Assembly (NCBI GenBank): GCA_030148805.1
Contig: JASBSS010000003.1
Coordinates: forward strand, 1 to 57,191
DNA: 57,191 nucleotides
Origin: Thiogranum sp.
GTDB lineage: Bacteria; Pseudomonadota; Gammaproteobacteria; DSM-19610
Direction of reading: 5' to 3'
Shown: positions 19,727-25,001 of the stretch, piece by piece
How the letters are laid out: the number at the start of each line of letters is the position of its first letter
How positions within the stretch are numbered: the first letter of the stretch is position 1
The notes under the pieces: model-generated
Database searches by the model: none
The model's input: the letters and a program-made list of their open reading frames with translations, nothing else
Told to the model about the DNA's origin: nothing
Position numbers and translations under genes: made by a program

Positions 19727-20425
19727 GTGTTACGAATCAGCGTCATGAATACCAAAGGGGGTTGCGGCAAAACCACCGTAGCCACCAATCTGGCCAGCTA
19801 CTGCGCCTGCCAGGGTTATGCCACTTCGTTGTTCGACTACGACCGCCAGGCTTCCAGCGTCCGCTGGTTGAAGCAGCGTAAAGCCGGGAGTCCGCCGGTG
19901 CACGGCGTGGCCGCCTTCGCGCCACCGCCGGAAGGCGTCACCCGCAGCTGGCACATGCGGGTGCCGGACAACACCCGCTACCTGATCACCGACACCCCGG
20001 CCGGCTACGGTCTGGTCGACATGGAGGACCGGGTGGCGGAAACCGACGTGATATTGATTCCGGTGCTGCCCTCTTTCATCGACATCCACTCCACGGCCGA
20101 TTTCGTCCGCGACCTGTTGCTCATCGGCAAGGCCCGGGCACACAACACGCAGCTGGCGATCGTCACCAACCGCACCCGCATTCGCACCCGCGCGGTGGAC
20201 AAGCTCGAGCGCTTCCTGCAGCAACTGGACATCCCCGTGATTGCGCGCATCCGCGACACCCAGCACTATGTCACCGCCGCCGAACGGGGGCTGGGCGTGC
20301 ACGAGCTGGCCGAGCGTGACGCGCAAAAGGATACCGAATCCTGGGCGGCCCTGCTCGACTGGCTGGACAGCGGGGGCGAGGCCGTCGGCCACCCCCAGCG
20401 GCTATTGAAGAACGCCTCGCGCTGA
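19727..20425 (+). CDS. Orphan ParA/MinD-type ATPase
   Basis: The 232-residue protein begins with a deviant Walker A motif with both signature lysines (MNTKGGCGKTT), then the switch I Asp in FDYDRQASS and a Walker B-like LITDTPAGYG. Such P-loop ATPases position plasmids, chromosomes or protein complexes. No parB-like gene or obvious centromere repeats are adjacent, so its cargo is unknown. The GTG at 19727 is needed to include the first beta strand (LRISVMN); an ATG at 19745 would remove it. A GAGG lies upstream at 19710. A strong hairpin terminator follows. Confidence 0.82.
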   Translation: MLRISVMNTKGGCGKTTVATNLASYCACQGYATSLFDYDRQASSVRWLKQRKAGSPPVHGVAAFAPPPEGVTRSWHMRVPDNTRYLITDTPAGYGLVDMEDRVAETDVILIPVLPSFIDIHSTADFVRDLLLIGKARAHNTQLAIVTNRTRIRTRAVDKLERFLQQLDIPVIARIRDTQHYVTAAERGLGVHELAERDAQKDTESWAALLDWLDSGGEAVGHPQRLLKNASR

Positions 20426-20475: not shown

Positions 20476-20883
20476 TCAGTGCTTGCCCGGCGCCAGCGGC
20501 ACACCACGCCGCTCCCAATGGATATAGGACTGCAAATCCACCATGTCCGCGGCATCCAGGGCCAGCGGGTCACTCTCCAGCGGGTTCATGATGCACCAGT
20601 TGATCATCTCGCCGAGCACCGCCACCTTGCCTAGCTGCTGCTGGAACTTCGGATAGGTCTCCGGATGGATGTTGGTCGCGTTGGGATGACACTGATCGCA
20701 GGAGACGGTGTTTTTCGACTTCAGACCGCCGTGGAACAGCTTCTCGCCCTTTTCCACCGAGGCCATATACTCCGCTTTCCAGCGTTCGAGATCGGCCTGG
20801 GTGAAGGGATCGGCGGAAGCGACACCCGCGAGCACCGCGGTCGAGGCGGCGAGCAGCAGACAGGTTGGTGTTTTGATCTTCAT
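20476..20883 (-). CDS. Small exported monohaem c-type cytochrome
   Basis: The 135-residue protein has a signal peptide ending ASADP and one haem site, CDQCH (Cys62-His66). The C-terminal pattern MINWCIMNPL plus LDAADMVDLQSYI resembles a SoxA/TsdA-like cytochrome domain rather than a classical class I cytochrome c. The final ERRGVPLAP is also typical of that fold. The ATG at 20883 has GAGGAG upstream. It is the last gene of the peroxidase - phosphoesterase - cytochrome operon. Its redox partner is unknown; by position it may donate electrons to the diheme peroxidase. Confidence 0.82.
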   Translation of the reverse strand: MKIKTPTCLLLAASTAVLAGVASADPFTQADLERWKAEYMASVEKGEKLFHGGLKSKNTVSCDQCHPNATNIHPETYPKFQQQLGKVAVLGEMINWCIMNPLESDPLALDAADMVDLQSYIHWERRGVPLAPGKH

Positions 20884-20903
20884 ATACTCGGCTCCTCGCA
20901 CAA

Positions 20904-21977
20904 TCAATAGTGGGTCTGGGGTGGTATGCGGTCCGCGACGGGCTGGAACTTGGTGTCCGCCGGATGACCGGCTTTGCGGTCAAAGGCCACCACGCGGTTC
21001 TGATTGTCCGGCAGCAGATAGTGCACGTCGACGTTGCCGGTGTGCATGTTGATGAACTGCCAACCCGTGGCATCGCGTTCGAAAAACGGGTCCGCGCGGT
21101 TCATTTCCACGGTGAGTTTCGGCAGATAGCTGGCGGCCTGCTTGTAGCTGCTGGGATAGGGCCAGGGCCAGGCGGTGGCCATGGCGGAGTTGAAGCTGAT
21201 ATTGCCGATCTGGTTGTACTGGATCTGATGCACGTGACCGTACAGGACGCTGACCTTGCGAAACGGCTTGAGCAGCGCCTGCACCTGTTCGGCATCGTCG
21301 GTCCAGAAGTTCCAGCCTTTATAGATTTTCTGCAGCGGGGAATGCGACAGCACCACGACGGGCGTGTTCTTGTCGACCTTCTCCAGATCCTGCTTCAACC
21401 ACTGGCGCTGCGCCTCGCCCACCATGAAGGGCGAACCCTGCGGGTTGTCCAGGCGCGCCATCTGCTGCATGCGCTCCATCGGTCCGCCCCATTTGTTGAC
21501 CCAGTCGTCGTAGGTCAGGATGCTGTTGAGCACCACGAAATGCACCCCTTTGTGATCGAAGGAGTAATGATCCGGGCCCAGTTGCTTGCGCCAGTAGTCG
21601 CCCAGGTCGAGATAGTAATCGTGCTCGCCCATCACATAGTGCACGTCTCCGCGCAGGCCGGAGAGGATCTCCAGGCCGTGGTCGATCTCCTCCGGCTTGC
21701 CGAGTTGGGCGATATCGCCGCCGTAGAAGACGAAATCCGGTCGCGGATCCAGCAGGTTGGTCTCGGCGATGGCGCGGATCAGCCCCCGGTCCCAGTTGCG
21801 CACGAACTCCTTGCCCTTGATGTGCGTGATATGGGAATCTGAGAGATAGGCGAAAGTGAAGTTCTCCGGGTCGTTCTTGCCGAAGGCCACCTCCACCAGC
21901 GACAAAGGCAAGCTGCCGGCCGCCAGCAGCGCACTGCCGCGCTTGAGAAATTCCCGTCGGTTGATAGATTTGCTCAT
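20904..21977 (-). CDS. Tat-exported metallophosphoesterase
   Basis: This is a calcineurin-like phosphoesterase of 357 residues. A Tat signal (INRREFLKRGSALLAAGSLPLS) is followed by the two-metal site residues in order: LSDSHITH, YGGDIAQ, GEHDYY, LSHSP and GHVHQ. The unusual GEHD replaces the common GNHD. Substrate is unknown; relatives hydrolyse phosphomonoesters or nucleotides in the periplasm. It sits between the diheme peroxidase gene (14 nt upstream) and a small cytochrome c, an odd redox context for a phosphatase. Confidence 0.85.
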   Translation of the reverse strand: MSKSINRREFLKRGSALLAAGSLPLSLVEVAFGKNDPENFTFAYLSDSHITHIKGKEFVRNWDRGLIRAIAETNLLDPRPDFVFYGGDIAQLGKPEEIDHGLEILSGLRGDVHYVMGEHDYYLDLGDYWRKQLGPDHYSFDHKGVHFVVLNSILTYDDWVNKWGGPMERMQQMARLDNPQGSPFMVGEAQRQWLKQDLEKVDKNTPVVVLSHSPLQKIYKGWNFWTDDAEQVQALLKPFRKVSVLYGHVHQIQYNQIGNISFNSAMATAWPWPYPSSYKQAASYLPKLTVEMNRADPFFERDATGWQFINMHTGNVDVHYLLPDNQNRVVAFDRKAGHPADTKFQPVADRIPPQTHY

Positions 21978-21990
21978 TGCTGATCCTCCG

Positions 21991-23103
21991 TTACTTGCCG
22001 GCCTGGGACGCGAACTGCGCGCTGGTGAGAGATTCTAGAAACGCCACCAGGTCCTGCTTCTCCTGGTCGGTGAGGTGCAGCGGGCGGATGCCGCCGCTTT
22101 GAAAGTCCGACAGGGGATCGGTCTCCTTCAGACGACCGCCATTGTTGTAGAAATCGACCACGTCGGCCAGGGTCTCCAGACTGCCGTCGTGCATGTACGG
22201 CTGGGTGATGGCGATGTTGCGCAACGTGGAGGTCTTGAACGCGCCGACTTCGGTGGGATTCTCGGTGACGGCGAAACGACCCAGCTCGGAAATATCGGCG
22301 TTGGTGAGCACGGACTTGTCGACATCCGCGCCCTGGCGCTTGGCGTGCACGAATTTCTCCGCGATCTCCAGCTCCTTGCCGCGGATTTTCTTGAAACCGA
22401 CGCCGATGTTGTGAAACCGGTTGTCGGTGAACAAGGCCTGTGTCTCCTCTATCGTGTGACAGGCGACGCAACGCGCCTTGTTGCGAAACAGTTGCAGACC
22501 GCGCACCTGGGCGTCGCTCAGCGCGCTCTTGTCACCGCCGTATTGATAACGATCGAAAGGCGAGTCCCCGGCCACCACGGTGCGTTCGAAACTGGCGATG
22601 GCCTTGGCGACGTGATCCATGGTGATGGCCTGCGGCGCGACGTCGAAGACCTCGCGGAATGCCGAGGTGTAGTCCCCGTCCTCGCGGATCACCTTGAGGA
22701 TCGGCTTGTGATCGTGCAATCCGCCTTCGACCGGGTTCACGAACGGCTGTTTGGACTGACCCTCCAGATCGGGTTCGCGTCCGTCCCAGAACAGGCTCGT
22801 CATATAAGCGGAATTGATCACCGTCGGCGCATTGCGGGTGCCCGTCAGGCCGTCAAAGCCCTTGGATACGGCCAGGTGATCGGTAAAGCCCTTGGCCTTG
22901 TCGTGGCAGGTCGCGCAGCTGACCTTGCCGTCGGCACTGAAACGCTGATCATGGAACAATTTGTCGCCCAGCTTGATCTTGGCCGGGGTCTGCGGATTAT
23001 CGGCCGGGATCGGCACGGGCGGCAAGCCTAGCGGGGCCGCCGCCACACTGCCACCCACAGCCATCAGCACAGCCGCTGTCAGCCACTGTCCGGAAAATTT
23101 CAT
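21991..23103 (-). CDS. Diheme cytochrome c peroxidase (CcpA/MauG family)
   Basis: It reduces periplasmic H2O2 with electrons from a small cytochrome. The 370-residue protein has a signal peptide ending near SVAAAP and two haem sites, CATCH (Cys63-His67, peroxidatic haem) and CVACH (Cys212-His216, electron-transfer haem). Family hallmarks are KLGDKLFHDQRFSADGKVSC, GTRNAPTVINSAY, FWDGRE and TLRNIAITQPYMHDGS. The ATG at 23103 has GGAGG upstream. It is divergent from oxyR, and the OxyR-like site at 23194-23230 may couple its expression to peroxide. Confidence 0.92.
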   Translation of the reverse strand: MKFSGQWLTAAVLMAVGGSVAAAPLGLPPVPIPADNPQTPAKIKLGDKLFHDQRFSADGKVSCATCHDKAKGFTDHLAVSKGFDGLTGTRNAPTVINSAYMTSLFWDGREPDLEGQSKQPFVNPVEGGLHDHKPILKVIREDGDYTSAFREVFDVAPQAITMDHVAKAIASFERTVVAGDSPFDRYQYGGDKSALSDAQVRGLQLFRNKARCVACHTIEETQALFTDNRFHNIGVGFKKIRGKELEIAEKFVHAKRQGADVDKSVLTNADISELGRFAVTENPTEVGAFKTSTLRNIAITQPYMHDGSLETLADVVDFYNNGGRLKETDPLSDFQSGGIRPLHLTDQEKQDLVAFLESLTSAQFASQAGK

Positions 23104-23193: not shown

Positions 23194-23230
23194 TTAAATT
23201 GTTGCAATAATTGCGATAGTATAAAGCTAT
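23194..23230. promoter_or_regulatory. Candidate OxyR operator between the diheme peroxidase and oxyR
   Basis: ATAG-N7-CTAT at 23216-23230 fits 9 of 10 fixed positions of the OxyR half motif. A weaker half (23194-23208, 6 of 10) lies exactly 7 bp away, the spacing of tandem OxyR sites. The site ends 21 bp before the oxyR start codon, suiting autoregulation and control of the divergent peroxidase operon. Confidence 0.55.
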
Positions 23231-23251: not shown

Positions 23252-24199
23252 ATGACGCTGACAGAACTACGCTACATCATCGCCCTGGCGCGGGAAAAGC
23301 ACTTTGGCCGCGCGGCCAGGGCCTGCTACGTCAGCCAACCGACGCTGAGCATCGCGATAAAAAAGCTCGAGGAAGAACTCGGCGTCCAATTGTTCGAACG
23401 CCGCGCCAGCGACGTCACGGTCACACCGATCGGCGAACGGGTGCTGGAACAGGCGCAGCACGCCCTGGAGGCGGCCGCCAACGTCAAGCAGGTCGCCCTC
23501 GAGGGCAAGGATCAGTTGAGCGGGCCATTGCGCATCGGCGCGATCCACACCGTCGGCCCCTACCTGTACCCCGAACTGATTCCGGTGATGCGCAAACTGG
23601 CGCCGAAAATGCCTCTGTTCGTCGAGGAGAACTATACCGCGGTACTGACGGAAAAGCTCAAGCGGGGCGATCTGGACGTGATCATCATCGCCCTGCCCTA
23701 CCGCGAACAGGGCATCGTCACCCTGCCCTTATACAACGAGCCCTTCGTCCTGTTGCTGCCGGCCGCCCACCCCCTGACGCAGCGCAAAACCATCAAGGCC
23801 CAGCAACTGGAGAACGAAACCGTATTGCTATTGGGGGCCGGACACTGCTTCCGCGATCATGTCCTGGAAGCCTGTCCTGCCTGCATACCCAAGCCCGGGC
23901 GGGAGGGCGAACTCGAACACACCATCGAGGGCAGCTCGCTCGAGACCATTCGACACATGGTAGTCTCCGGTCTGGGCCTGACCGTCCTGCCCTGCACCGC
24001 CGCCGGCGCCGACCGCTACTCCCAACGGCTGCTGGAAATCCGCCGCTTCGGCAATCCGGTGCCCAGCCGGGTCGTCGCGCTGGCCTGGCGGGTGACCTTT
24101 CCGCGCACCCGGGCGATCGACACCCTCAGTAGCGCCATCGCCCAATGCGGCCTGAGCTGTGTCAAGCTGATCAAACCGGCGAAAGGCAAAAGCCACTGA
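23252..24199 (+). CDS. oxyR: Peroxide-sensing LysR-type regulator OxyR
   Basis: The 315-residue protein has an N-terminal LysR winged helix-turn-helix (AARACYVSQPTLSIAIKKLE). The redox pair Cys199 and Cys208 in GHCFRDHVLEAC has the same numbering and spacing as E. coli OxyR. Oxidation by H2O2 forms the disulfide that switches DNA binding. It lies between two genes of its expected regulon: the divergent diheme peroxidase operon and the convergent peroxiredoxin-glutaredoxin gene. The ATG at 23252 follows a GGGAG ribosome site. Confidence 0.94.
   Translation: MTLTELRYIIALAREKHFGRAARACYVSQPTLSIAIKKLEEELGVQLFERRASDVTVTPIGERVLEQAQHALEAAANVKQVALEGKDQLSGPLRIGAIHTVGPYLYPELIPVMRKLAPKMPLFVEENYTAVLTEKLKRGDLDVIIIALPYREQGIVTLPLYNEPFVLLLPAAHPLTQRKTIKAQQLENETVLLLGAGHCFRDHVLEACPACIPKPGREGELEHTIEGSSLETIRHMVVSGLGLTVLPCTAAGADRYSQRLLEIRRFGNPVPSRVVALAWRVTFPRTRAIDTLSSAIAQCGLSCVKLIKPAKGKSH

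Positions 24200-24251: not shown

Positions 24252-25001
<750 letters not shown>

Follow-up and report, generated by a model that had tools for sequence, protein, structure and literature searches.

A conserved triad of di-haem protein, metallophosphoesterase-fold protein and small cytochrome c: a possible periplasmic electron-transfer unit

We describe here three adjacent genes in a stretch of 57,191 nucleotides (the window; contig JASBSS010000003.1) from Thiogranum sp., a gammaproteobacterium. They encode an exported di-haem protein of the peroxidase fold (PER), a metallophosphoesterase-fold protein (MPE) and a small monohaem cytochrome c (CYT). The triad is a conserved, self-contained unit, found far more often than chance would allow. 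Among more distant relatives of MPE the electron-carrier neighbours are swapped. This swapping is the strongest clue to a redox role for MPE, and it suggests that the protein serves in electron transfer rather than in ordinary phosphate removal. We tentatively prefer the view that PER, MPE and CYT work together as a single periplasmic unit of electron transfer, with MPE and CYT as its redox core and PER as its peroxide arm.

The hallmark of the MPE family is motif III, which reads GEHD in 100 of 100 sequences, not GNH(D/E) as in PF00149. The sequences are that of the window, 80 of class I (gene order PER-MPE-CYT), 7 of class II (rhizobial, MPE about 40% identical) and 12 of class III (cupredoxin or CuA-type neighbours). 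Nine metal-site residues (D47, H49, D88, E118, H119, D120, H212, H248 and H250) and a twin Arg, which by its motif is of the Tat type, are invariant in all of them.

Conservation of the triad

A genome scan with MPE found 211 relatives, of which the best 80 were kept; the counts from these loci thus describe the closer part of the family. In 80/80 MPE is preceded by PER and followed by CYT, all on the same strand. The two gaps have medians of 11 and 20 nt, and that between MPE and CYT is at most 100 nt in 77/80. By label the loci belong to five phyla: mainly Gamma- and Betaproteobacteria by title, and further Desulfobulbaceae, Arcobacter, one metagenome-assembled genome (MAG) of Acidobacteria and one MAG labelled Bacillota. 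More distant triads are found on a plasmid of Methylocystis sp. MJC1, where MPE is 51% identical, and in one further genome (G206).

Within the taxonomic order of the window, 12 of 20 genomes carry MPE and 11 carry CYT; the sole mismatch is a genome (G007) whose MPE is cut by a contig end. When 349 Pseudomonadota genomes (own included) were scanned, MPE (E ≤ 1e-30) was found in three, and a strong CYT (E ≤ 1e-50) in the same three. That scan scored at most five candidates per genome and missed distant GEHD relatives; its weaker CYT matches (E above 1e-22) are taken to be SoxA/TsdA-type relatives. To go by record names, the MPE family is carried by sulfur oxidisers, methanotrophs, ammonia oxidisers, Desulfobulbaceae, rhizobia and actinobacteria.

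Clustering of the neighbours at the 80 loci gave no conserved gene beyond the triad except an OxyR-like one (22 loci). The remaining clusters hold at most 8 loci, and a 28-locus cluster of naive open reading frames (ORFs) antisense to the CYT region is a gene-call artefact. A wider conserved operon was rejected, as few neighbours lie on the same strand within 150 bp: 14 of 72 on the downstream side and 13 of 72 on the upstream side (naive gene calls). Co-evolution was also set aside as evidence for the triad: distances among the three proteins correlate (Pearson 0.67-0.80; 77 rows), but those with OxyR correlate as well (0.72-0.87; 22 rows), and the triad is not singled out.

Exchange of partners among relatives

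In class II, a cupredoxin-like protein, MPE and CYT occur together in 7/7 rhizobial clusters examined, and none of the seven has an adjacent PER. Because the MPE-CYT pair persists in these clusters, MPE is the most constant partner of CYT. The cupredoxin-like protein has a Cys-x2-His-x2-Met motif, and its sole Pfam match is a CarboxypepD_reg domain. Four loci of Bradyrhizobium type (L147 and L158-L160; the genus assignment is ours) carry consecutively SCO, the cupredoxin-like gene, MPE, CYT, COX1 and a FixO-cytochrome fusion. The same row in Phyllobacterium is followed by SafE, a P-type ATPase, an NAD(P)/FAD oxidoreductase, a cytochrome, SoxZ and SoxY. Such genes also surround the trio on pSymA of Sinorhizobium meliloti, differently arranged, and in S. 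americanum the trio comes with SCO, a COX1 gene lying about 5 kb off on the opposite strand. The class II clusters are usually accompanied by genes for a cbb3-type oxidase. In S. meliloti R11 (L151:13770-14346) the cupredoxin-like gene seems to carry a frameshift when compared with its relatives; for several other strains a single gene is listed there.

In class III, MPE is 33-38% identical to that of the window (plasmid records). Weaker matches to MPE are present in 58 of 80 genomes of one genus (g98), and a blue-copper protein adjoins the GEHD-type gene in 23/23 genomes examined, which were mostly those at the top of the list. The adjacency was flagged by script in 17 of 20; three loci (L166, L171 and L176) were counted as adjacent because their cupredoxin is in an overlapping same-strand stop-to-stop ORF. 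A cupredoxin also lies beside a GEHD-type MPE in two Burkholderia loci, Caballeronia, Streptomyces and Mycobacteroides, and in Cupriavidus the neighbour is a protein with what we take to be the CuA motif. Cytochromes, blue-copper proteins and CuA proteins share little but one-electron transfer, which suggests that this branch of MPE takes part in redox chemistry.

Among the matches listed in a plasmid collection, MPE is found in at least 58 records and CYT in at least 41. Their counts agree in Sinorhizobium (35), Rhizobium (4) and Phyllobacterium (1), the records not all being paired; Methylocystis has three records with MPE, and CYT is present in one of them. A Mycobacteroides plasmid (L104:1-5304) has a molybdopterin oxidoreductase, an epimerase, a sigma factor, a Rieske protein, a cupredoxin and a GEHD-type MPE. 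The cluster looks like a redox operon, and we know of no described role for it.

The three proteins and their control

The genes of the window are listed in Table 1. The gaps are 13 nt between PER and MPE and 20 nt between MPE and CYT, a purine-rich stretch precedes each ATG, and the three genes have a G+C content of 0.607 (0.608 for the window). An earlier note on this DNA, made from the sequence alone, had called the genes tightly packed and divergent from oxyR, and the coordinates bear this out. Its further remarks on an unusual GEHD motif and a SoxA/TsdA-like monohaem cytochrome also hold, as detailed below. Past oxyR and convergent with it is a second peroxide-defence gene, a peroxiredoxin-glutaredoxin fusion (24252-25001, minus strand). 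On the other side a lone ParA-type ATPase gene (19727-20425, plus strand) is convergent with the triad; the two closest named relatives (L015 and L016) have it next to their triads as well.

Table 1. Features of the triad locus (positions are those of the window)
Feature	Position	Strand	Description
PER	21991-23103	minus	370 aa; exported di-haem MauG/MbnH-type peroxidase; haem sites C63xxC66H67 and C212xxC215H216; Y319, E114, W106
MPE	20904-21977	minus	357 aa; Tat-type exported calcineurin-fold metalloprotein; GEHD motif; D47, H49, D88, E118, H212, H248, H250
CYT	20476-20883	minus	135 aa counted from ATG; exported monohaem cytochrome; single SoxA/TsdA domain; H66 proximal, C97 candidate distal ligand
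oxyR-like LysR-type gene	23252-24199	plus	Divergent from PER; likely regulator; NCBIfam OxyR equivalog 234 bits
OxyR-type half-site ATAG-N7-CTAT	23216-23230		Between oxyR and PER

PER has a hydrophobic leader, read from sequence, and matches PF03150 (CCP_MauG) above the cut-off (184 bits). Both of its CxxCH haem sites are invariant in a 77-row alignment, from which four partial PER were omitted; so is Glu114, and Trp106 is kept in 0.97. These two residues and the two-haem fold are shared with the bacterial cytochrome c peroxidase CcpA. The difference is at Tyr319, invariant in the 77 sequences, which aligns gap-free to residue 294 of MauG and is aligned to residue 275 (Met) of 1eb7. We take both to be axial-ligand positions, so that Tyr replaces the axial Met of the second, electron-transfer haem; on this ground a classical CcpA peroxidase was rejected. 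Among NCBIfam models, PER comes nearest to that of the MbnH family (TIGR04039; 279.6 bits, under the curated cut-off of 362.85). Thus the "diheme peroxidase" of the earlier note stands as to fold and not as to the classical subtype. The nearest chain in the Protein Data Bank is 6e1c, a di-heme enzyme that is presumably MbnH (E 5e-50); 6nx0 and 6v59, presumably BthA, are far weaker (E 3e-17). In fold, Tyr position and nearest model, PER resembles the MbnH/MbnP and CorB/CorA systems, but it falls under the family cut-off, and its neighbour is a metallophosphoesterase-fold protein rather than MbnP. Two Lysobacterales MAGs have a second, distant PER-like gene directly downstream of the triad (L043:7668-8699 and L044:7695-8741). 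The genome of the window (G000) has two adjacent CCP_MauG di-haem matches at C36:62207-63972 and another at C38:118918.

MPE matches PF00149 (Metallophos) at 43.7 bits against a cut-off of 21.5. Its GEHD occupies residues 117-120, with E118 aligned to Asn80 of GpdQ in a profile alignment. The structural model is of moderate confidence (pLDDT 65) and was used for fold only; it has the fold of GpdQ (Z 17.5), Rv0805 and purple acid phosphatases, whereas SoxB appears at Foldseek rank 22 only (E 2e-3). The CpdA equivalog model (NF008359) gives 31.5 bits, the cut-off being 225. Thus MPE has the fold and the metal-site frame of GpdQ, Rv0805 and CpdA, but differs from them by the change of Asn to Glu in motif III, by Tat-type export and by its electron-carrier neighbours. 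There are 16 Metallophos matches in the genome of the window, of which 12 loci were fetched and the motif read in 6/12; the 11 loci other than MPE have GNHD or GNHE in 5, no readable motif in 6 and GEHD in none. In a tree of the family the GNHD branches are very long, which makes the placement of these relatives unsafe, and its rooting was not used.

CYT has a hydrophobic leader, read from sequence, one CxxCH and one haem domain, which matches PF21342 (SoxA/TsdA domain; 46.6 bits, cut-off 27). Its A4 profile matches SoxA (1h31; E 7e-15) and TsdA (E 6e-8), and its model (pLDDT 85) superposes on TsdA with a Z of 10.2 across 99 residues. Cys97, invariant in 81 sequences, aligns to Cys96 of TsdA, which is a haem ligand; TsdA loses its activity when this Cys is mutated (PMC6879331, in excerpt). 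CYT would by this alignment have a His/Cys-ligated haem. Two conserved Arg of TsdA, numbered 109 and 119 (PMC6879331, in excerpt) and equated here to chain positions 82 and 92, are replaced by Gln83 (invariant) and Met93 (0.99). CYT is thus a single domain of the TsdA/SoxA fold, but with one haem site, no second domain and changed Arg positions. It was not accepted as a thiosulfate dehydrogenase because of these replacements, nor as a true SoxA, as the SoxA model (TIGR04484) gives 46.6 bits, far under its cut-off of 110. From the type of haem ligand and the changed Arg positions, CYT has the look of a haem domain from an active site, its substrate pocket altered, rather than that of a plain shuttle.

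The LysR-type neighbour is under the cut-off of 329 bits for the OxyR equivalog; in an alignment of 22 rows of OxyR-like proteins, C199 and C208 each have a conservation of 0.95. Of the 80 loci, 7 had too little upstream sequence to be scored. Among the other 73, PER faces a divergent OxyR-like gene in 19, the window not being one of these, and in 54 there is none. An exact ATAG-N7-CTAT, which we take to be the OxyR-type consensus, is present in 11 of the 19 oxyR-PER intergenic regions, where about 0.08 was expected from shuffles, and in 3 of the 54 upstream regions lacking OxyR (0.24 expected). Since the site is enriched beside a divergent OxyR and most loci are without OxyR, peroxide control through OxyR is likely in this lineage, judging from sequence, and not general across triads.

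Weighing the readings

In the preferred reading, the carboxylate-rich dimetal site of MPE and the haem of CYT would form the redox core, and PER would be the arm that spends electrons on the reduction of H2O2. In rhizobia the same core would be wired instead to the cupredoxin-like protein and a cbb3-type oxidase as an oxygen-consuming arm, and a cupredoxin would be the carrier for more distant MPE relatives. In this organism peroxide probably turns the unit on through OxyR. A sulfur compound may be named as the first candidate substrate, on the weak grounds of the SoxA/TsdA ancestry of CYT and of SoxY and SoxZ beside two rhizobial clusters.

A bolder claim, which we regard as doubtful, is that the calcineurin-like metallophosphoesterase fold has a redox branch with MPE as its founding member, MPE then being a dimetal oxidoreductase with dedicated carriers. 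The change of Asn to Glu in motif III would alone convert the phosphodiesterase site to one of 2 Asp, 1 Glu and 4 His. Flavodiiron proteins have the same ligand make-up on an unrelated hydrolase-derived fold. With the SoxA/TsdA-type cytochrome, a cupredoxin or a CuA protein as carrier, MPE would exchange electrons either with H2O2, by way of PER, or with a cbb3-type oxidase.

Several points weigh against the preferred reading. We know of no redox chemistry in the metallophosphoesterase fold family. As MPE has kept all the phosphodiesterase metal ligands save the one changed to Glu, it may still hydrolyse. The evidence from gene neighbourhood is indirect, and it does not show in which direction electrons would pass between MPE and its partners. 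His/Cys haems are usually of low potential (PMC6879331, in excerpt), which is awkward for a simple shuttle. One S. meliloti plasmid with the MPE-CYT cluster carries elsewhere a di-haem gene 33% identical to PER, so a peroxidase may be acting from a distance in rhizobia. There are also exceptions to the pattern of neighbours. In Methylocystis bryophila, MPE and a PER-like gene are about 56 kb apart on one plasmid, which has no CYT at E ≤ 1e-5. No carrier gene was found beside MPE on two plasmid copies of Burkholderia vietnamiensis (by annotation of both and a search of one, L103), although a cytochrome c assembly gene lies upstream. In Gemmatirosa the cupredoxin is 1.3 kb from MPE on the opposite strand.

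The pairing of a di-haem enzyme with a phosphatase has a parallel in print. BthA, a Tyr-ligated di-haem MauG-like enzyme of Burkholderia, is reported always to be near a putative phosphatase of unknown role, PhosA, which it has been proposed to oxidise (PMC6405878, in excerpt). The triad likewise sets a di-haem enzyme beside a phosphatase-fold protein. It was not accepted as the same system: PER is nearer to 6e1c than to 6nx0/6v59, and the likely PhosA of B. cenocepacia (named so for its place upstream of the di-haem ORF) has GNHE where MPE has GEHD. Nor do the excerpts mention a SoxA/TsdA-type cytochrome for BthA/PhosA (PMC6405878). By analogy, PER may be a MauG/MbnH-like modifying enzyme that uses H2O2 to oxidise a residue of MPE (or CYT) for maturation. 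MbnH so matures MbnP. Consistent with such a role are the position of Tyr319, the closeness to 6e1c and nine Trp that are invariant across 81 MPE. The B. cenocepacia di-haem ORF adjoins the GNHE phosphatase-like ORF, as read from its sequence, and a Paraburkholderia di-haem peroxidase is directly downstream of a PF04185 phosphoesterase (L198:2251-5673). The recurrence of the pairing with unrelated phosphatases speaks for modification. We consider modification unlikely all the same: the rhizobial MPE and those beside cupredoxins keep the metal site without an adjacent PER, so a neighbouring PER is not generally required for MPE. The Tyr is moreover compatible with a peroxidase, since Tyr-to-His and Tyr-to-Met variants of BthA retain peroxidase turnover and the Tyr-His ligand pair directs the enzyme towards a bis-Fe(IV) state that this turnover does not need (PMC6405878, in excerpt).

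Of the two other explanations, that of an ordinary peroxide-stress operon would have PER detoxify H2O2 with CYT as donor, MPE being a true phosphodiesterase for housekeeping or repair. It accounts for the adjacent OxyR-like gene with its site and for the GpdQ-like dimetal site. We consider it about as unlikely as modification. Against it, MPE and CYT stay paired where PER is not adjacent, no peroxidase was found beside the GEHD relatives that adjoin cupredoxins, and a divergent OxyR is missing from 54 of the 73 loci scored. The least probable of all, in our estimate, is a Sox-like sulfur reaction, in which Cys97 of CYT would bind a sulfur oxyanion oxidatively, MPE would hydrolyse the product, as SoxB does in the Sox pathway, and PER would take the electrons. 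The fold of CYT and its Cys97 suit such chemistry. SoxY, SoxZ and the NAD(P)/FAD oxidoreductase are present in both rhizobial clusters read at length, in whose incomplete gene table no SoxA, SoxB or SoxX is annotated. In a survey of 50 of the 80 triad loci, SoxY exceeds its cut-off in 32/50 triad genomes against 17/150 background genomes. The contrast shrinks when any SoxY match is counted (36/50 against 60/150) and is confounded by ancestry; SoxY matches are absent in 14/50 triad genomes (some of them incomplete MAGs), so SoxYZ was rejected as an obligatory partner. The replaced Arg positions of CYT and the likeness of MPE to GpdQ, with SoxB far down the list, also argue against it.

Returning to the electron-transfer unit, the cytochrome may feed the peroxidase, as the earlier note suggested, but this view is incomplete, as MPE is the most constant partner of CYT and the putative Cys ligand of CYT is typical of an active-site haem, not of a classical shuttle. 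The note was right that known peroxide defence does not explain a phosphatase here; MPE may not act as one. As far as tested, the triad is also the undescribed periplasmic module that was proposed. No description of it was found among the matches listed in the open PubMed Central (PMC) literature, a scope that leaves most subscription papers and preprints outside. Nor was any open PMC paper found that joins a metallophosphoesterase with a cytochrome c peroxidase, although other wordings could be missed, and metallophosphoesterase and cupredoxin came up together in a plant paper only.

In closing, if the preferred reading is true, a family annotated as phosphatases or phosphodiesterases may belong among the electron-transfer enzymes. 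As the family occurs across many groups by record names, the matter of annotation touches many genomes. BthA and PhosA had raised the question, still open, of why MauG-like di-haem enzymes accompany phosphatases; the triad lets it be studied independently in a second setting, with a small, fixed and testable set of genes.

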